A stretch of 64,000 nucleotides of DNA from Paraflavitalea soli (lineage in GTDB: Bacteria; Bacteroidota; Bacteroidia; Chitinophagales; Chitinophagaceae). The notes under the pieces were generated by a model, which saw only the letters and a program-made list of their open reading frames with translations, did no database searches and had not been told where the DNA came from. The stretch spans positions 8,250,546 through 8,314,545 of the forward strand of contig NZ_CP032157.1 in the NCBI RefSeq assembly GCF_003555545.1. The letters run 5' to 3'. This document shows positions 5,963-51,186 of this stretch, one piece after another (position 1 is the first letter of the stretch; each line of letters opens with the position of its first letter). A program made the translations under genes and the position numbers.

Positions 5963-6106
5963 TCGGCAATTTCGGCAATCGTCAATCGGCAATGATTCTT
6001 GATAAAATATACTGCTTTACTACCTTTTTGCTGCTGAGACCTCATCCTCTGAATTTAATCAACTCTTTAAAATAGCAGGACTATTGCCGATTGACGATTG
6101 CCGATT
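5963..6106. repeat. Inverted heptamer-word repeat, ATTGCCG family
   Basis: The left arm (5963-5998) and right arm (6083-6106) are inverted copies built from the 7-base word ATTGCCG/ATTGACG. The right arm reads ATTGCCG ATTGACG ATTGCCG. The 84-base spacer has no ORF or obvious stem. It lies in the divergent gap between the Usp and hexosaminidase genes. Related single arms occur at 17721, 46305, 46961 and 55131. Confidence 0.8.
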
Positions 6107-6171
6107 CACGTTTCTCCAATAATTCCCTATTTTTAGAACCATTTCCAAATTGTATAAACTAAGCCTGCACA

Positions 6172-8091: not shown

Positions 8092-8100
8092 GGAGGGCAA

Positions 8101-8298
8101 GAATACAGGATACAGAATACAGAAGAATACAAGATACTGCGTACAGAAAAAGTAACAGGATCAAAAGAAAAAGGGGAAGCATCAATCGATGTTTCCCCTT
8201 TTGCATTGTATAAAAGTGTAGTTCGTTGCTGTTTTCTCTTTTCCCGTACCCTATCGAAGCAAACGATTCTGTATCCTGTATTCTGAATTCTGTATTCT
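8101..8298. repeat. Inverted heptamer-word repeat, GAATACA family, enclosing a terminator
   Basis: The left arm (8101-8132) reads in words of seven, GAATACA GGATACA GAATACA. The right arm (8265-8298) is its inverse (GATTCTG TATCCTG TATTCTG). The left arm starts ten bases past the hexosaminidase stop, and the right arm ends at the base before the stop of the convergent FtsX-like gene. A terminator hairpin sits between the arms at 8168-8203. Confidence 0.82.
8168..8203. terminator. Bidirectional terminator between convergent genes
   Basis: A long stem: AAAAGGGGAA (8169-8178) pairs with TTCCCCTTTT (8193-8202) and continues through a G-U pair and CATC/GATG to a 4-base AATC loop. A and T runs flank it on both sides, so it can stop both the hexosaminidase and permease transcripts. 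Confidence 0.85.
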
Positions 8299-10665
8299 CT
8301 ACTCGCTTCTCAAACTCCTCACCGGGTTGGCCAAGGCGGCTTTGATCGATTGGAAGCTGATGGTGAGGATAGCAATGAAAATGGCGATGATACCCGCCAG
8401 CAGGAATACCGTCCAGGCAATATTTATTTTATAGGCAAAATCCTGCAGCCATTTGTTCATGGTATACCAGGCAATTGGTGCGGCGATTACGATGGAGATC
8501 AGTACCAGCGTAATAAAGTCCCTGGCCAGTAAGCGGATGATGCCCCCTACACTGGCGCCCAGTACCTTGCGGATACCGATTTCCCGGGTGCGTACCTGGG
8601 CTGTATAAGCAGCCAGTCCCAACAATCCCAGGCAGCAAATAACAATGGCGATGATGGCAAAAATGTTGAAGATAGTGCCGGTGCGGGTTTCGCTGGTATA
8701 GAGTTTATCAAAGGTTTCGTCCAGGAAATGATAATTGAAAGGCATTTCTGTGTTGTATTGCTTCCATACTTTTTCAGCGGCAGCAATGGCCTTGGGTGCA
8801 TCCTTGCCCGTGGTCTTGATATAGACCATGGCATTTTTTCCTGTTTGCGTATAAAAGATAGCCGGTTCTATTTTGTTTTTCATCGAAGCATAATGAAAAT
8901 CCTTCACTACGCCTGTAATAGTACCGGTCGTTTCCCATAATTTGAATGGCTTGCCAATCGGGTCCTTGATGCCTGCCTGCCGTATTGCCGTTTCGTTGAG
9001 TATGAAGTGCGCTGAATCCGCTGGCGTGCCCGTGAAGTTGGCCCCCGCAACCAGTTGCATTTTAAAGAAGGGTATGAAATCCGCTGAAATACCAACAGGA
9101 TGCATCATCATGGTCTCATCCGCTCCCTTTCCTTGCCACCAGTTGCTACCTGTTTGGTTGGACAGGCTGATGATATTATCATCAGCCCGGGCCACATCCA
9201 ATACACCGGGTTGACTGATCAGGGTAGACCTGATGGTAGTATAGTCAGGGCTTCCATTACGCACCCATATACTCAGTACATTTTCTTTGTCGTAACCGAG
9301 ATTGCGTGAACGGATGTATTGCAGTTGATTGCTGATAATGAGCGTACCGATAATGAGCGCTACCGAGCAGGCAAATTGGGTTACTACCAATGCTTTCCGG
9401 AACAAGGCATCACTGATGCGTGCATTCATTTTTCCTTTTAATACTTTCAAAGGCTCAAAGGAAGAAAGCAGCAGGGCGGGATAGATGCTGGAAACGATCA
9501 GCGCCCCTGTAATAATGGCGAGCAACAAGGTCCATAAGCGATAATCCAGCAGGTTCAGCTCCAGTTCTTTGCCTGATAACTGGTTAAAGAAAGGCAACAA
9601 CACATTGATGACCCCAATAGCCAGTATCGCCGCCAGTACAAACAGCAGGGCTGTCTCTACGATAAATTGCAGGAACAGTTGCCATTTGGCGGCGCCTACG
9701 ATCTTGCGCATGCTCACTTCCCGGGCGCGCAGCATGGAGCGGGCCGTGCTGAGGTTAACATAGTTGATACAGGCAATGATCAGGATGATCAAAGCGATCC
9801 AGGTAAACATGCGCACCGTCTCCATACCTGCTTCTTTGCCGTCCGACAGATAAAGGTGCATATCGGGCACACGCAGGAACTGGTATTTGATATCCGTATC
9901 ATCCGCTTTATTCCGCAGGTGGATATTACGCAGGTCCGTAGCCAGCTTTGGGAGGTCGGTGCCTGGTTTCAATTTGAAGTAGGTAAAATAGTTGAATTGA
10001 TGGAAATCGTTTTCCATTGTCCGGCCATCCGTCCGGTTTTGGTATTGTAAACGGGTCATCAATTCCAGGGGCATCACCATATCGTATTGGATAGTGGAGT
10101 TCTTGGGTACATCTTTGGTGATGCCTGTAACCGTGAAATTGGTGGTCTTATCAGCTACGATGACCTTACCTATAGGGTCTTCATTGCCAAAGTGCTTTTT
10201 AGCGGCTGTTTCAGTCAACACCACGCTGTAAATATTGGGAAAAGGGTTCGCTGCATTGCCCTTAATGATCGGGAAGTTGAACATGGTAAAGAAAGCAGGA
10301 TCGGCCATAATGCGCTTGTCAATATCCAGGCGTTTCTCTTTATACATCATGGAATAATAATAGCCGCCGCCACACCAGCGTACCATTTCTTCGATCGCCG
10401 GCAATTGTTCCTTTCCCATCACCCCAATGGGCGCTACAGTGGCTGTCCATATCTGTACACTGGCGCCTGTGCCTACCTGGTTTTCCAGTTTGTAGATATT
10501 GTCGGCCTGCTTGTGAAAGCGGTCGAAGCTCAGTTCGTCCTGCACCCATAGCAAGATCAGGATGCCCACTGCGAGGCCTGCGGTCAGGCCGGCAATATTG
10601 ATGGCCGAATAGAATTTATTCTTAACAAGGTTGCGCCAGGCAGTTTTCAGGTGATTTTTGAACAT
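8299..10665 (-). CDS. FtsX-like ABC transporter permease (MacB-type)
   Basis: A 788-residue inner-membrane protein with the duplicated MacB_PCD-FtsX architecture common in Bacteroidota. It starts MFKNHLKTAWRNLVKNKF and has a first membrane helix at about 20-40 (INIAGLTAGLAVGILILLW) and a periplasmic domain. Next come a three-helix FtsX block (about 280-400), a helix near 430, a second periplasmic domain, and a final FtsX block at about 670-785 that includes REIGIRKVLGASVGGI. No ATPase gene lies beside it, so its partner is elsewhere or it works with a shared ATPase. The ATG six codons upstream (10683) is an alternative start. The transported substrate is unknown. Confidence 0.88.
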   Translation of the reverse strand: MFKNHLKTAWRNLVKNKFYSAINIAGLTAGLAVGILILLWVQDELSFDRFHKQADNIYKLENQVGTGASVQIWTATVAPIGVMGKEQLPAIEEMVRWCGGGYYYSMMYKEKRLDIDKRIMADPAFFTMFNFPIIKGNAANPFPNIYSVVLTETAAKKHFGNEDPIGKVIVADKTTNFTVTGITKDVPKNSTIQYDMVMPLELMTRLQYQNRTDGRTMENDFHQFNYFTYFKLKPGTDLPKLATDLRNIHLRNKADDTDIKYQFLRVPDMHLYLSDGKEAGMETVRMFTWIALIILIIACINYVNLSTARSMLRAREVSMRKIVGAAKWQLFLQFIVETALLFVLAAILAIGVINVLLPFFNQLSGKELELNLLDYRLWTLLLAIITGALIVSSIYPALLLSSFEPLKVLKGKMNARISDALFRKALVVTQFACSVALIIGTLIISNQLQYIRSRNLGYDKENVLSIWVRNGSPDYTTIRSTLISQPGVLDVARADDNIISLSNQTGSNWWQGKGADETMMMHPVGISADFIPFFKMQLVAGANFTGTPADSAHFILNETAIRQAGIKDPIGKPFKLWETTGTITGVVKDFHYASMKNKIEPAIFYTQTGKNAMVYIKTTGKDAPKAIAAAEKVWKQYNTEMPFNYHFLDETFDKLYTSETRTGTIFNIFAIIAIVICCLGLLGLAAYTAQVRTREIGIRKVLGASVGGIIRLLARDFITLVLISIVIAAPIAWYTMNKWLQDFAYKINIAWTVFLLAGIIAIFIAILTISFQSIKAALANPVRSLRSE

Positions 10666-17720: not shown

Positions 17721-17749
17721 ATTGCCGACTGCCGATTGCCGATTGCCGG
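17721..17749. repeat. Single arm, ATTGCCG heptamer family, between hisD and hisC
   Basis: Four heptamers ATTGCCG ACTGCCG ATTGCCG ATTGCCG in a 100-base intercistronic gap. No inverse partner is seen nearby. Confidence 0.75.
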
Positions 17750-18866: not shown

Positions 18867-20156
18867 ATGAAATGGATTAGCAAAGTGCTCCCCCTTATTC
18901 TTTTGGCAGCCTCAGCTGCTTATGGCAACGACACCACGCATGTAAAACCCAGGCTCCGCAAGGCGGCGCCTGTAGAAGAGAATGGAGGCATTACACTGCC
19001 TGCCGGCTTCAAGGCCGTGGTAGTGGCCGATTCTGTGGGCAGGGCCAGGCATATCGTGACTGCCGCGAATGGCGACCTGTATGTCATGTTGTTCAGGATC
19101 AAAGACGGGCATGGCATATTGCGCCTGCGTGATACCAACAACGATGGTATTGCCGACCAGACAACGGCCTTTGGTAATTATGCCGGTACAGGTATTACCA
19201 TCAAGGATGGTTATTTGTATGCCTCTTCCAATAAGGAAGTATTTCGCTACAAGCTGAATGAAAAGCAGGAAGTGATCAATCCCGAACAACCGGAGAAGAT
19301 CGTCACAGGCCTGATCGACAGGAATACACACAATACCAAATCACTGGTGCTGGATAATGTGGGCAATATTTACGTGAATATTGGCGCTCCTTCCAATGCC
19401 TGTCAGCTGGAAGACCGCAAAAAAGGTTCTCCTTCCCCTTATCCCTGCCCCTTACTGGATTCAGTAGGCGGCGTATGGCAGTTCAAGGCCGATAAACTCA
19501 ACCAGTCTTACCCCGAAGGTATCCGGTATGCTACCGGTATCCGCAACATCATGGGGCTCGATTGGAACCAAACCACCAACTCGCTGTTTGCGATGCAGCA
19601 CGGCCGGGACAACCTCAACTCCCTGTTCCCTGAAATGTACAATGAAGACGAGAGTGCAGAATTGCCTGCGGAAGAGTTATTCCAGATCAACAAGGGCGAT
19701 GATTTTGGCTGGCCTTATTGTTATTTCGATTGGTACCAAAACAAGAAAGTACTGGCCCCGGAATATGGCGGCGATAAAAAGAAAGAGGGGCTTTGTGCCG
19801 ATAAGAAGAAACCGGTCTATGCATTTCCCGGTCACTGGGCGCCGAATGCCTTGATGTTCTATACCGGCAACCAGTTTCCCGAAAAATACAGGAATGGCGC
19901 TTTTGTGGCCTTCCATGGTTCCTGGAACCGGGCGCCCAAGCCACAGGCCGGGTACTTTGTCGTATTCCTTCCTTTTAAGGATGGCAAGCCCAATGGCGAG
20001 TATGAGATCTTTGCAGATGGTTTTGCCGGTGCATCCCGGGAGCCTGCCAAATCAAGGTTCCGTCCCTGCGGACTGGCCCAGGGCCCTGATGGTTCCCTGT
20101 ATATCTCCGACGATAAGAAAGGTCGTCTCTGGAAAGTAACTTACACAAAAAAATAA
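18867..20156 (+). CDS. Sorbosone dehydrogenase-family (PQQ-type sugar dehydrogenase-like) protein
   Basis: A 429-residue exported beta-propeller protein with a signal peptide (MKWISKVLPLILLAASAAYG). Motifs include LPAGFKAVVVAD, YATGIRNIMGLDWN, HGRDNLNSLFPE, GDDFGWPYCYFD and GSLYISDDKKGRLWKV. The last two are typical of L-sorbosone dehydrogenase and soluble glucose dehydrogenase-like proteins that use pyrroloquinoline quinone. The physiological substrate is not known. It sits inside the his unit between hisC and hisB and is followed 12 bases later by a cytochrome c, a likely electron acceptor. Confidence 0.85.
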   Translation: MKWISKVLPLILLAASAAYGNDTTHVKPRLRKAAPVEENGGITLPAGFKAVVVADSVGRARHIVTAANGDLYVMLFRIKDGHGILRLRDTNNDGIADQTTAFGNYAGTGITIKDGYLYASSNKEVFRYKLNEKQEVINPEQPEKIVTGLIDRNTHNTKSLVLDNVGNIYVNIGAPSNACQLEDRKKGSPSPYPCPLLDSVGGVWQFKADKLNQSYPEGIRYATGIRNIMGLDWNQTTNSLFAMQHGRDNLNSLFPEMYNEDESAELPAEELFQINKGDDFGWPYCYFDWYQNKKVLAPEYGGDKKKEGLCADKKKPVYAFPGHWAPNALMFYTGNQFPEKYRNGAFVAFHGSWNRAPKPQAGYFVVFLPFKDGKPNGEYEIFADGFAGASREPAKSRFRPCGLAQGPDGSLYISDDKKGRLWKVTYTKK

Positions 20157-20168
20157 ACACTTGCTGCT

Positions 20169-20582
20169 ATGCAAAAAACATTGCTATTGATCACTTGTGC
20201 TGGCGCCTTTTTATTGATGGCCGCACAGGTAAAACCAAAGCCAGTGCCTAAAAAGGTATTGGAGAACGGTAAAAAAGTATACGATACTTATTGCCTGCCC
20301 TGTCATCAGCAGGATGGGAGTGGGGTACCCAATATGACCCCTACATTAAGCAAGACCACCTGGGTGACCGGCGATAAAACAAAGCTCGTACAGGTAATCC
20401 TGAAAGGCATGAAAGGTGTGGAAGTGGATGGTGAAACCTACGATAATGTAATGGCTGCTCATGACTATCTCACAGATCAGGAGATTGCAGATGTGACAAC
20501 TTATGTTCGTAACAGTTTTGGCAATAAAGCGAATATGATCACAGTAGCAGAGGTGAAAGCCATCCGCGCTAAGACAAAATAA
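20169..20582 (+). CDS. Exported c-type cytochrome
   Basis: A 137-residue protein with a signal peptide (MQKTLLLITCAGAFLLMAAQ) and one haem-binding motif CLPCHQ (CxxCH) at about residue 42. The probable axial methionine is in the region of KGMKGVEVDGETY or NVMAAHDYL, with the C-terminal helix LTDQEIADVTTYVRNSFG. This is a class I mono-haem cytochrome domain. Its pairing with the upstream dehydrogenase suggests that it carries electrons from it. The left arm of a heptamer repeat begins right after its stop. Confidence 0.88.
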   Translation: MQKTLLLITCAGAFLLMAAQVKPKPVPKKVLENGKKVYDTYCLPCHQQDGSGVPNMTPTLSKTTWVTGDKTKLVQVILKGMKGVEVDGETYDNVMAAHDYLTDQEIADVTTYVRNSFGNKANMITVAEVKAIRAKTK

Positions 20583-21130
20583 GAATACAGAATATAGAAT
20601 CCAGAATTCAGAAGAAATACAGGTTAAAAGGCAGACTGATTGGTAGCATGTTTAATTAATTGCTTAACCTCAATGTTATTAACATGCAACCTGCAAAATG
20701 TTTTGAAGACCTGTTTGTATGGCAGAAAGCTCACCAGTTTACTATCGGTATTTATGGCTATACACGAAATTTTCCGCGTGAAGAAGTATATGGACTAACT
20801 TCGCAATTCAGAAGAGCCGCTGTTTCGATAGCAGCCAATATTGCAGAAGGGTTTAAAAAGCGAAGTGGGAAAGACAAGGCAAGGTTTATGAATATTGCAC
20901 AAGGTTCATTGGAAGAGTGCAGGTATTACCTAATACTTTCCAGGGACCTTAATTATGGTGAAAACCAGTCTTTGGGCGATTTGCTGGATGAAGTGAGTAG
21001 AATGCTTGAGTCTTACCACAATGCAATCTCGAAATCTATAATTAATTAATACAATACTATTCATTGTGAATTCCATGTGCTGGTTCCTATATTCTGGATT
21101 CTGGATACTGGATTCTAAATTCTGTTCTTC
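20583..21130. mobile_element. Putative element: GAATACA-family inverted arms around a four-helix-bundle gene
   Basis: The left arm (20583-20623) reads GAATACA GAATATA GAATCCA GAATTCA. The right arm (21086-21130) is its inverse (TATTCTG GATTCTG GATACTG GATTCTA). Between them is only the four-helix-bundle gene. The left arm begins at the base after the cytochrome stop, and the right arm ends at the base before the hisB ATG. The interior is more AT-rich than the flanking genes. No transposase or target duplication is seen, so mobility is inference. Confidence 0.5.
20684..21049 (+). CDS. Four-helix-bundle protein (23S rRNA intervening-sequence / S23 family)
   Basis: A protein of about 121 residues from the ATG at 20684 (an in-frame ATG at 20660 would add eight residues). 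The family signature is clear: FEDLFVWQKAHQF, YGLTSQFRRAAVSIAANIAEG, RFMNIAQGSLEECRYYLILS, and a last helix with LLDEVSRMLESY. Family members were first found inside 23S rRNA intervening sequences and are related to the Avd accessory protein of diversity-generating retroelements. A biochemical role is not established. Here it stands alone within the his unit, between inverted heptamer-repeat arms. Confidence 0.9.
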   Translation: MQPAKCFEDLFVWQKAHQFTIGIYGYTRNFPREEVYGLTSQFRRAAVSIAANIAEGFKKRSGKDKARFMNIAQGSLEECRYYLILSRDLNYGENQSLGDLLDEVSRMLESYHNAISKSIIN

Positions 21131-22270: not shown

Positions 22271-22440
22271 TTACGGATTTCGAATGTAGCATGTAGGATT
22301 GCTGCCGCGATTGGTACCCGCAAATAAAGATTCAGGTCGCCGGACTTTCTAAGCCACCAGGAAGTTCGTAGTTGTTTATATTGTTACACATAAAGAATTC
22401 GAAATCCTACATCCTACATCCTACATCCTACATCCGGAAT
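22271..22440. repeat. Inverted heptamer-word repeat, CATCCTA family
   Basis: The right arm (22395-22440) contains CATCCTA four times in tandem after AATCCTA. The left arm (22271-22300) is the diverged inverse (GAATGTA GCATGTA GGATT). The left arm begins directly after the hisB stop, and the right arm reaches the stop codon of the convergent GNAT-like gene. The spacer of about 95 bases shows only weak pairing. Confidence 0.82.
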
Positions 22441-25013: not shown

Positions 25014-25059
25014 GCGGGCTGTTTTGCTCGCAGCTCGTAGCTCAAAGCTCGCCGCTAAC
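25014..25059. repeat. Heptamer-word repeat, AGCTCGT family, between trpE and trpG
   Basis: A run of 7-base words GCTCGCA GCTCGTA GCTCAAA GCTCGCC. No inverse arm is close by. Relatives lie at 46427-46454 and 51136-51186. Confidence 0.72.
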
Positions 25060-30228: not shown

Positions 30229-30304
30229 TATTAGCTTTTAGGTATTAGGATTTAGCCATTCGTCGCCGGCTGTTCGCTAACAGCTAAAGGCTAAAAGCTA
30301 ACAG
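30229..30304. repeat. Inverted heptamer-word repeat, TTTTAGG/GCTAAAA family, between trpB and trpA
   Basis: The left arm (30229-30257) reads TATTAGC TTTTAGG TATTAGG. The right arm (30275-30304) is the inverse (GCTAACA GCTAAAG GCTAAAA GCTAACA). The spacer is about 17 bases, so the arms could fold into one long hairpin inside the trp mRNA. A relative is at 44524-44553. Confidence 0.8.
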
Positions 30305-30373
30305 CTCTTTACTCTTTAGGCATGAAGAGTATGAGATTCTCTAAATAATAACATTACGCGTTAAGTAAACAAC

Positions 30374-34563: not shown

Positions 34564-35649
34564 ATGAAGCAGTTACTGGTATGCATATTATTAATACCCA
34601 TGGGATTACTGGCTCAGTCGGGGTTTGTGATCAAGGGAAATGTGATGGGCCTGCCCGAGGCGTCCAAAGTGACCCTCACGGATGTTAACAATGCAACCGA
34701 CACCCTGGCCCGCGGCAAGGTGGAAAAGGGCGTGTTTGAACTGAAAGGATCCATCAAAGAGGCCAATCTTTACCAGTTGAATTTTGATGGGGTGGAAAAG
34801 AAGACCATCCTGTTCATCGGCAATGACAATGTTACCGTACAGGGTAATGTGGAGAAGGTGCAGGACATCCAGGTAAAGGGCTCTCCTGTACACGATGACT
34901 TCGTTACCTTCCAAAGCACTTTCAACCCTCTTTTCAAGAAGCTGACAGAAATGAACCAGCAGCTATACGCTACACCCAATGTGCAACCTGGCGATTCCAT
35001 CATGGTGGCTTATATGAATCACGTGGAAAAAACAAAGGCTGCTATTGAAAAGTTTACCATCGAAAAGAAAGGTTCTCCCGTGGCCCCTTTCGTGTTGGTA
35101 GTAACCAGCGAACTGGAGCAGGATATCAGCATTCTCGAAAAGCATTTTAACCTGCTTGCTGCTAACGGTCAACAGGGCTTTTATGGCAAGATCCTGAAAC
35201 AGCGCATTGATGATAGTAAGATCGGCGCCATTGGCAGCCAGGCCATAGAGTTTAGCCAGAATGATACCACTGGTAAGCCCGTCTCCCTGGCTTCCTTCCG
35301 GGGCAAATATGTGCTGGTAGATTTCTGGGCCAGCTGGTGCAAGCCCTGCCGCATGGAGAACCCCAATGTAGTGACCGCTTTCAACAAATTCAAGGATAAG
35401 AATTTCACCGTACTGGGTGTATCCCTCGACAGAGAAAAGCAATCCTGGTTACAGGCCATCAAAGATGATAATCTTGCCTGGACCCAGGTGAGCGACCTGA
35501 AATTCTGGAGCAATGAAGTAGCCCGCCTGTATAAAGTAGAGGGCATACCTCAAAACTTCCTCATTGACCCTACTGGTAAGATCATCGGTAAAAACCTACG
35601 CGGAGCAGGATTGCAATCAAAGCTTTGCGAACTGCTGGGATGTAATTGA
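34564..35649 (+). CDS. Exported TlpA-like thioredoxin with DUF4369 domain
   Basis: A 361-residue protein with a signal peptide (MKQLLVCILLIPMGLLAQ), a DUF4369 N-terminal domain (about 20-120, GFVIKGNVMGLPEASKVTL), a helical middle part and a C-terminal TlpA/AhpC-type thioredoxin domain (about 225-361). The active site is WASWCKPCRMEN and the cis-proline region VEGIPQNFLI. It is probably a periplasmic disulfide reductase. It follows hisIE by 10 bases and is the last gene before the terminator at 35720, so it probably belongs to the same transcript as the trp and his genes. Confidence 0.88.
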   Translation: MKQLLVCILLIPMGLLAQSGFVIKGNVMGLPEASKVTLTDVNNATDTLARGKVEKGVFELKGSIKEANLYQLNFDGVEKKTILFIGNDNVTVQGNVEKVQDIQVKGSPVHDDFVTFQSTFNPLFKKLTEMNQQLYATPNVQPGDSIMVAYMNHVEKTKAAIEKFTIEKKGSPVAPFVLVVTSELEQDISILEKHFNLLAANGQQGFYGKILKQRIDDSKIGAIGSQAIEFSQNDTTGKPVSLASFRGKYVLVDFWASWCKPCRMENPNVVTAFNKFKDKNFTVLGVSLDREKQSWLQAIKDDNLAWTQVSDLKFWSNEVARLYKVEGIPQNFLIDPTGKIIGKNLRGAGLQSKLCELLGCN

Positions 35650-35815
35650 TTTCGAATTTCGGATGTAGGATGTAGTATTGCTGACGCGAATTGAACTCAC
35701 TGATTACTTATAAATAACGAACCCGCTGATATAGTTTGGCTTTATCAGCGGGTTATGATTTAATCGACAACTCGCATTCGGAGAATCCTAAATTCTACAT
35801 CCGACATCCGACATT
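35648..35815. repeat. Inverted heptamer-word repeat, CATCCTA/CATCCGA family, enclosing a terminator
   Basis: The left arm (35648-35683, GGATGTA GGATGTA) and right arm (35775-35815, AATCCTA AATTCTA CATCCGA CATCCGA) are inverse. The left arm overlaps the TGA of the thioredoxin gene, and the right arm runs into the stop codon of the DUF2911 gene. A terminator sits between them. Confidence 0.82.
35720..35754. terminator. Bidirectional terminator between convergent genes
   Basis: ACCCGCTGATA (35721-35731) pairs with TATCAGCGGGT (35743-35753). It ends the long plus-strand trp/his transcript and the minus-strand DUF2911 transcript. U tails are weak. Confidence 0.75.
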
Positions 35816-38050: not shown

Positions 38051-38200
38051 GAAGAATACAGAATGTAGAATATAGAATCCAGAAGAATACAAGAGCTGGA
38101 AATTGGCTTTTATAAAAAAAGGCGTTGATAATTCATCAACGCCTTTAATATATTACGAACCCATGCTGGATTCTATATTCTGAATTCTATATTCTTCTTA
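38051..38200. repeat. Inverted heptamer-word repeat, GAATACA family, enclosing a terminator
   Basis: The left arm (38051-38093) reads GAATACA GAATGTA GAATATA GAATCCA. The right arm (38165-38200) is the inverse (GATTCTA TATTCTG AATTCTA TATTCTT) and ends inside the stop codon of the PBP gene (38198-38200). The terminator at 38118-38146 is nested between them, as at 8101-8298. Confidence 0.83.
38118..38146. terminator. Terminator nested in the repeat
   Basis: AAAGGCGTTGAT (38118-38129) pairs with ATCAACGCCTTT (38135-38146) around a 5-base loop. An A run on the left gives the minus-strand PBP transcript a U tract. Confidence 0.85.
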
Positions 38201-47956: not shown

Positions 47957-47986
47957 ATAATCTATAATTAATAATCAGTAATCAAA

Positions 47987-51135: not shown

Positions 51136-51186
51136 AGCGTCAGGAGCGGCTGTTCGCTCGCAGCTCGTAGCTCATAGCTCGCAGCT
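51136..51186. repeat. Heptamer-word repeat, AGCTCGT family
   Basis: GTTCGCTCGCA GCTCGTA GCTCATA GCTCGCA GCTG in the gap after the PNP gene. Its start GAGCGTCAGGAGCGGCTG is partly inverse to the words. Confidence 0.7.

Follow-up and report, generated by a model that had tools for sequence, protein, structure and literature searches.

What is the short interval that separates a cytochrome c gene from hisB in Paraflavitalea soli, and how could it have come to be there? It lies in a 64,000-nucleotide stretch of the genome (contig NZ_CP032157.1, positions 8,250,546 to 8,314,545), referred to as the window, to which all plain coordinates below belong. The hisB/cytochrome intergenic element (20583-21130) consists of a single IVP gene between inverted arms of tandem heptamers. 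Our analysis favors, with reasonable though not high confidence, its assignment to a transposase-less family of mobile stem-loops in which a pentameric IVP protein recognizes the word of its own arms and helps gene-bearing and gene-less copies to spread. Mobility and the pairing of word with protein are supported by sequence comparison, whereas binding and the chemistry of insertion are what we infer. The element comprises the following parts:

20583-20613, + strand: 5′ arm, GAATACA GAATATA GAATCCA GAATTCA GAA (word GAATNNA), lag-7 score 15
20684-21049, + strand: IVP gene, PF05635/TIGR02436 four helix bundle protein, 121 aa, ATG start
21091-21123, + strand: 3′ arm, inverted heptamers (TNNATTC)
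20583-21130, + strand: complete gene-bearing element; ortholog in sister species G002, putative one-arm remnant in G004, empty junction in G003

In inverted orientation, the two arms form a 27-nt match that contains 3 mismatches (score 21). Of 4000 random placements with similar geometry in samples of this genome and of genome G008, one attained that score and 47 attained a score of 14. The inverted GAATNNA arms noticed in the initial annotation are therefore real. The 5′ arm begins right behind the cytochrome TAA and has a looser tail to about 20625, and the 3′ arm stops 7 nt short of the hisB ATG (21131), such that the arms abut the neighboring gene on the cytochrome side, as had been proposed for both sides, and fall short of it on the other. 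The 64-kb window contains 18 tandem segments with a lag of 7, as compared with 0-2 for every other lag from 4 to 16 except the harmonic lag of 14 (10 segments). In a predicted RNA fold of the element the arms pair (z −4.5), and no Rfam family matched in any of 7 sources including the window. A putative sorbosone-dehydrogenase-like gene and the cytochrome c gene occupy 18867-20582 between hisC and hisB; in the sister species G001, a hisC-like gene lies immediately 5′ of hisB.

The PF05635 gene is the sole gene seen between the window arms (profile match E 8e-37), in agreement with its description as the only content of the element. The window protein scores 126.1 bits against the PF05635 23S_rRNA_IVP profile (cut-off 33.8) and 120.4 bits against TIGR02436 (cut-off 24). 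Its predicted model (pLDDT 95.3) is most similar to 2gsc_B, the X. campestris XCC0516 protein (TM 0.89), followed by 2rld and then by the Avd protein of diversity-generating retroelements (4dwl, 8ub7 and 8ube; TM 0.74-0.78 at 13-14% sequence identity). The fold is shared with Avd, to which the initial annotation had related this family, and the window protein scores below both the Avd cut-off (NF033474, 26.1 bits vs 80) and the bAvd cut-off (23.9 vs 40). Avd is a pentamer. Two S23-family PDB entries contain five chains each, and a title cited in PMC10053308 describes 2gsc as built from five four-helix bundles. Within the window's class, 225 of 295 sampled genomes have PF05635 matches, and the number of IVP matches per genome ranges from 0 to 14, a patchy presence.

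To assess how general the arms are, we counted an IVP gene as armed when its flanks gave an inverted score of at least 14 within 200 nt (250 nt in the cyanobacterial and 26-genome sets). The IVP loci are the best-scoring matches plus hand-picked others rather than a random sample; proteins shorter than 95 aa (90 aa in the cross-phyla and 26-genome sets, 85 aa in cyanobacteria), flanks shorter than 100 nt and the broken, cut or duplicate loci L042, L062, L069 and L084 were dropped, and two-gene loci were counted twice (two in the cross-phyla set and one in the 26-genome set). Among relatives up to the level of the order, 45 of 59 IVP genes have arms, as compared with 3.8% of cross-locus pairs and 10/539 control ORFs. 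The proportion is 25/30 for the best-scoring IVP genes of the window's class (295 genomes searched; cross-locus 8.9%), 48/78 in a set of mixed phyla (7.9%) and 21/26 in cyanobacteria (116 genomes searched, 44 of them with a match; 10.8%), and 19 of 30 genes from 26 genomes, a set overlapping the mixed-phyla one, are armed as well (6.3%). At this threshold, arms are absent from 14/59 IVP genes of relatives and from 30/78 of mixed phyla. These results provide PF05635 genes, for which we know of no demonstrated function, with a context, namely a mobile stem-loop.

The arms share an architecture that extends beyond the GAATNNA word. Across 122 armed loci, the best arm period is 7 in 67 cases, 8 in 24, 9 in 5, 10 in 3, 6 in 2 and 12 in 1, with 20 loci not reaching a score of 9, and an arm holds about 4.4 units (217 arms, with 4 or 5 units after rounding in 131 of them). 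C is scarce on the 5′ strand of the arms (9% vs 23% in far flanks), and the dinucleotide AG is 1.43-fold over-represented with a spacing of mostly 7, falling within the consensus word of 115/157 period-7 arms where composition predicts 53%. Since the arms form an inverted repeat, a G/A-rich word lies 5′ on both strands, and the conserved polarity accordingly relates to the center of the element and not to the direction of the gene. Reshuffling the units of one arm lowered the mean match from 23.2 to 18.6 (p ≤ 0.05 at 19/84 loci), which indicates that the arms as a group are complementary in register and do not merely share a word.

The initial annotation had proposed arms of one fixed word, GAATNNA/TTCTNNA, which did not hold: IVP lineages differ in word, and although most words are 7-mers, 8- to 10-mers occur too. 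The suggested survey of IVP genes in related genomes consequently found arms with differing words, and a search confined to GAATNNA would have spoken falsely against the association. In the source genome itself (G000; 8.44 Mb, one contig), all four IVP genes lie inside heptamer arms, each with a word of its own: GAATNNA in the window, GAGCTNC at L002, GGATNNN at L003 and TCGGCAR at L004. The L003 arms, both discernible by eye, reach an inverted score of only 10 because they have drifted. A single universal GAATNNA arm is ruled out by the other words found at three of these four genes.

We next compared words with proteins at 135 loci, leaving out identical proteins as well as loci from all other members of the genus; within-genome pairs of the multi-copy genomes G000, G008 and G011 were excluded, and those of a few other genomes were kept. 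The fraction of word-sharing pairs (score of at least 14) changes with rising protein identity from 34/2180 below 30%, through 72/3903, 87/2137, 99/616 and 39/121, to 14/20 at 70% or above, whereas sharing in the opposite polarity amounts to 21 pairs in total. Between nearest protein neighbors the arm score is 13.0; over 2000 permutations it averaged 7.2 and never exceeded 8.5. In Balneolaceae (L216), an unclassified member of the Bacteroidetes (L205), Verrucomicrobia (L212) and Ignavibacterium (L232), the window protein has relatives accompanied by words resembling GAATNNAG, and other relatives at similar identity, for example L215 and L222, have no such words. Together, the comparisons suggest that word and protein tend to be co-inherited across phyla. 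The predicted ligand of each IVP protein would then be the arm word beside its gene, which would make the specificity code readable from sequence.

The words of the source genome also occur in arrays without a gene. We surveyed a 400-kb sample plus the window, where some arrays represent the two arms of one pair. Among the arrays outside IVP elements, 23 of 27 match one of the four IVP words of this genome, as compared with 3.7 on average and 13 at most in 100 control draws. Each draw took four genes belonging to other genomes, among them some sister-species genes with identical words. In G008, 17/31 arrays match the genome's own IVP words (control mean 5.4, maximum 12) and 14/31 match none of them. 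The window features of this kind, none of which is assigned to a strand, are:

8100-8311 (site 8095-8312), unstranded: gene-less inverted pair, word GAATNNA; encloses a terminator-like hairpin (by eye)
38053-38200, unstranded: gene-less inverted pair, word GAATNNA; encloses a terminator-like hairpin (by eye)
22271-22437, unstranded: gene-less inverted pair, word GGATGTA (L003 IVP word); directly 3′ of hisB; absent in G004
35649-35814, unstranded: gene-less inverted pair, word GGATGTA; element-free junctions of 13-23 nt in G001, G002 and G004
5972-6114, unstranded: gene-less inverted pair, word TCGGCAA (L004 IVP word); 3′ array matched to L004
25026-25050, unstranded: element remnant, word GAGCTNC (L002 IVP word)
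51156-51186, unstranded: array, word GAGCTNC; junction element-free in G001 and G003
17723-17748, unstranded: single array, word TCGGCAR; between hisD and hisC (names read from translations)
30276-30306, unstranded: array, word GCTAAMA, unlike any IVP word of the source genome

The inverted pairs at 8101-8298 and 38051-38200, which had been described as empty, are genuine pairs, although each of them holds a terminator-like hairpin, and the window also contains the arrays of other words that had gone unlisted. At 25026-25050, the sister species G004 has a compact hairpin with the GAGCTNC word, and G001 and G002 have none. No element was seen at the junction corresponding to 30276-30306 in G001 or G003. 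Arrays with no IVP gene of their own word comprise those at 30276-30306 and 47957-47984 of the window and at L073 1026, L080 4185 and L083 10396; in the source genome, such arrays are perhaps families orphaned by the loss of their protein. A core, GCTG(C/A)CGCG, directly follows the 5′ arm in source-genome elements with differing words (GAATNNA, GGATNNN and GTTTCGG), at window positions 22300 and 35679, L010 1532, L026, L031 1533 and L064 4818. Overall, 7 of its 15 occurrences follow an array, in scanned sequence chosen partly for containing arrays.

Comparison with four sister species (G001-G004) links the arrays to the presence of the protein. IVP matches number 6 in G002 and 2 in G004, with none in G001 and G003, and overlapping matches to the exact GAATNNA pattern number 109 in the source genome, 13 in G002, 10 in G004 and 0 in both G001 and G003. 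The pattern is present in 10/39 genomes, all of them IVP-bearing, and in 0/10 genomes without IVP. Arrays with a lag of 7 or 8 were absent from 245 kb of the IVP-free G001 and G003 (75 and 170 kb from contig starts), and lag-7 arrays have a density of 4.2 per 100 kb in the source genome and of 3.6 in random stretches of G008.

The junction between the cytochrome gene and hisB could be compared in three of the sister species: it measures 10 nt and lacks the element in G003, it holds an orthologous gene-bearing copy in G002, and its 60 nt in G004 can be read as a one-arm remnant. Comparing orthologous junctions, as had been suggested, therefore yielded an empty site, and the borders of the window copy could be placed to within a diverged junction. 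Of the 14 array sites of the window, at least 6 (20583, 22271, 25000, 30235, 35650 and 51105) are element-free, with a junction of 23 nt or less, in one or more relatives; at the remaining sites, where resolved, relatives have arms or other filler. At the L003 site, sister species hold an orthologous element with a different word, GTTTCGG, which shows that words drift, and do so in both arms. Within the genus, sharing of words (L001/L044, L004/L132, L048/L131 and L134/L135) concerns orthologous positions and thus reflects vertical inheritance.

The site at 8095-8312 behaves differently. There, convergent genes share a terminator-like hairpin across sister species, with arms in some of them only: G001 and G003 have a hairpin without arms, which we read as homologous, and in G002 arms of another word (GAGTNCA) surround its own hairpin. 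The interior of the window copy looks like it includes the native terminator. Arms around a native-looking terminator, together with the other word in G002, set this site apart from the simple insertion of a single cassette. Such a situation could result if arms were slippage-expanded tandem repeats, inverted by template switching at terminator hairpins, with the IVP gene there by chance; arms of different words enclosing terminator hairpins in different species fit this explanation, as does the number of units, which differs between the close copies L342 and L343. We nevertheless hold it to be very improbable, since it accounts neither for the arms at 45/59 IVP genes against 10/539 control ORFs, nor for the recurrence of the same word families within a genome, nor for words that follow the protein across phyla.

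Exact borders came from plasmids of Nostocales. In Nostoc sp. ATCC 53789, pNsp_a carries an IVP element whose matching junction on pNsp_c is bare, and pNsp_c carries a different IVP element whose corresponding junction on pNsp_a is bare. The IVP gene of Nostoc N6 is split by a gene-less unit of 182 nt that shares its word and is uninterrupted in two relatives, and the rarA gene of Calothrix brevissima is split by a 184-nt gene-less copy and is intact in Aulosira and N. carneum. The target duplication at the insertions into the Nostoc IVP gene and rarA is 0 or at most 1 bp; a duplication of several bp, of the type associated with MITEs and terminal inverted repeats, was thus not found at these two exactly bordered Nostocales insertions. 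The 10 gene-less copies fetched cover 9 sites, because two copies share an orthologous site; nine copies are followed on the right by ATAA and one by GTAA. The (A/G)TAA target is known from the Nostocales gene-less family alone. These comparisons indicate that units with and without the gene are inserted as discrete segments.

The Nostocales gene-less family occupies 100 places, spread over 43 plasmid records out of 72,556, and has a conserved folded interior of its own. The predicted RNA fold of a Nostoc gene-less element pairs the arms (z −8.7). Compensatory changes affect 7/59 predicted pairs among 8 gene-less copies, all of them confined to the internal hairpins and the inner hairpin on the 3′ side; the outer stem is nearly invariant and hence uninformative about pairing. 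With the element oriented by its interior, rarA lies on the strand opposite to the insertion, which speaks against the target having to be transcribed in the sense direction in every case. At L364 (Calothrix brevissima NIES-22 plasmid2), a rarA gene annotated in two pieces adjoins a reverse transcriptase homolog. On a plasmid of Picosynechococcus sp. PCC 7003 (L350; NZ_CP016476.1, 124549-128893), an IVP gene lies in a type III-B CRISPR operon, co-directional with and between cas10 and a Cmr3-family gene.

These findings bear on the hypothesis of coding and non-coding forms of one element. A mobile element with non-coding relatives that share its arm word is supported by our data, whereas an origin of the non-coding copies by gene loss would be speculative, given the native-looking terminator at 8095-8312 and the distinct interior of the Nostocales family. 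They also bear on a different role for the protein, in which IVP would be a post-transcriptional regulator, the arrays its binding sites on mRNAs and its own arms autoregulatory, with arrays spreading by other means and co-evolving with the protein. Arrays often adjoin stop or start codons, IVP genes are located in operons, and a regulatory role has been proposed for TAACTGA repeats (PMC4679880). We regard this role as an unlikely explanation of the whole, because gene-less units insert precisely into the coding sequences of the IVP gene and rarA, element-free junctions exist and presence is patchy, with 0-14 matches per genome. Judged from the sequences, insertions, empty junctions and patchiness together amount to the behavior of a mobile element, with which a regulatory side effect would be compatible.

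If the stem-loops are mobile, which enzyme moves them? No transposase or other enzyme gene was found inside the element. Matches to Y1_Tnp occur in 6/6 IVP-bearing and 4/6 IVP-free genomes tested, and matches to the reverse transcriptase profile RVT_1 in 5/6 and 4/6, respectively; the source genome has 2 Y1_Tnp matches, both outside the window, and 2 RVT_1 matches, none of them in the window. Over these 12 genomes, the presence of the element shows no clear correspondence with Y1 transposases or with reverse transcriptases. A reverse transcriptase is unlikely to be a necessary partner, since G014 has 7 IVP matches and 0 RVT_1 matches. The counts for Y1_Tnp keep a Y1 enzyme acting in trans in play.

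On this view, the stem-loops would be carried along in trans by an HUH Y1 transposase of the IS200/IS605 type, with IVP itself a passenger or an accessory. The 0- or 1-bp duplication, the (A/G)TAA beside one end and the hairpins inside the ends resemble IS200/IS605 insertion, and all six IVP-bearing genomes tested have Y1_Tnp matches. We consider this quite unlikely: four of the six IVP-free genomes also have such matches, including the sister species G001 and G003 (2 each), G014 combines its 7 IVP matches with just one weak Y1_Tnp match, and the link between word and protein is left unexplained. As for phages, an origin from them is unsupported, the window protein having no match in 50,697 phage records. 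Both neighbors of the IVP gene are co-directional with it in 103/138 cases and both opposite in 6/138, with control adjacent ORF pairs being co-directional in 263/355. In a Gracilibacteria genome (L268, 2680-2838), a 6S RNA gene adjoins an IVP gene.

Returning to the transposase-less stem-loop family, we suggest the following model. An element comprises two inverted arms, each of about 3-6 tandem words of 7-8 nt, enclosing one IVP gene, and non-coding copies have the arms and a folded loop only. IVP lineages pair with arm words of their own, several such pairs being possible in one genome, and gene-bearing copies, mostly co-directional in operons, are probably expressed by read-through. The pentameric protein may bind its own word in single-stranded RNA or DNA arms, with approximately one word per subunit, and could thereby mark its own stem-loop family for host enzymes of replication, repair or RNA processing; a host process would then insert the stem-loops with almost no target duplication. 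To our knowledge, IVP has no catalytic motif, and it therefore cannot be the whole machine. If IVP does drive insertion, mobility would be conferred by a protein that has no known active site and makes use of enzymes of the host. The initially suggested link to nucleic-acid insertion has gained from the co-inheritance of word and protein and from the insertion into an IVP gene, and its binding step and insertion chemistry are putative parts of the model.

A broader version would define a new class of transposase-less elements across bacterial phyla, in which each subunit of an Avd-like pentamer reads one of the tandem words of a single-stranded arm, word specificity evolves with the protein and each ring propagates its own stem-loops, with 23S rRNA intervening sequences and the orphan heptamers of cyanobacteria, xanthomonads and Beggiatoaceae as copies or relics. 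We put this forward tentatively and would not yet favor it. The elements would be a candidate source for heptamer repeats previously described with no associated gene. Such intergenic tandem heptamers comprise GGGAATC in Xanthomonas, often in inverted pairs and 70 in Xcc, and GGGGA(C/T)T in Nostoc, both generally unassociated with mobile elements (PMC4692102), as well as TAACTGA in Beggiatoaceae, cyanobacteria and Bacteroidetes, with no evident mechanism of transfer (PMC4679880); the resemblance to our arms lies in the intergenic tandem heptamers, in their frequent inverted pairing in Xanthomonas and in the GGGGACT arms of one cyanobacterial IVP gene, and the solved IVP structure 2gsc comes from X. 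campestris. No IVP gene is named in the excerpted parts of either account, and no title or abstract opening among the matches listed joins heptamer repeats with IVP/S23 genes, in a search that covered mostly open-access journal articles. The cyanobacterial IVP gene L340 has GGGGACT arms, in a frame with one stop and an uncertain start, and GGGGACT repeats lie upstream at L202/L301 with no inverted partner at threshold. The GGGAATC pattern occurred in a single genome among 395 from the phylum to which G472 belongs, a set with no Xanthomonas genome knowingly included, as one array with no IVP gene within 4 kb, and TAACTGA was not found in IVP flanks.

Several known systems share parts of this design. 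In 23S rRNA intervening sequences, an S23/IVP ORF lies in a stem-loop whose loop is excised from the transcript by RNase III, and gene-less forms are known; the protein family and the ORF-in-stem-loop topology are thus the same, whereas the window copy lies between protein genes (cytochrome c and hisB), outside any 23S rRNA gene, and 20 other IVP loci scanned gave 0 LSU matches. Avd shares the fold, and the 8ub entries are titled as a DGR ribonucleoprotein reverse transcriptase; the differences are the 13-14% identity noted above and that no reverse transcriptase is linked to the IVP element. IS200/IS605 elements insert with no or minimal target duplication at a short fixed target at one end and have hairpins near their ends, which is matched by the fixed (A/G)TAA right-end target of 10/10 Nostocales gene-less copies, a likeness drawn from Nostocales data only; the tandem-word arms and the lack of a transposase found in the element differ. 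A further parallel in organization is REPIN-RAYT, in which REP repeats are mobilized by a REP-associated tyrosine transposase (HUH Y1). The IVP element does not encode such an enzyme, its protein being a four-helix bundle with no known active site, and its arms are tandem 7-8-mers where REP sequences are single palindromes. Like REPIN-RAYT, however, it has inverted short repeats on either side of a protein gene, non-coding copies of the repeat scattered through the genome with a preference for intergenic sites, and a protein matched to its own repeat family.
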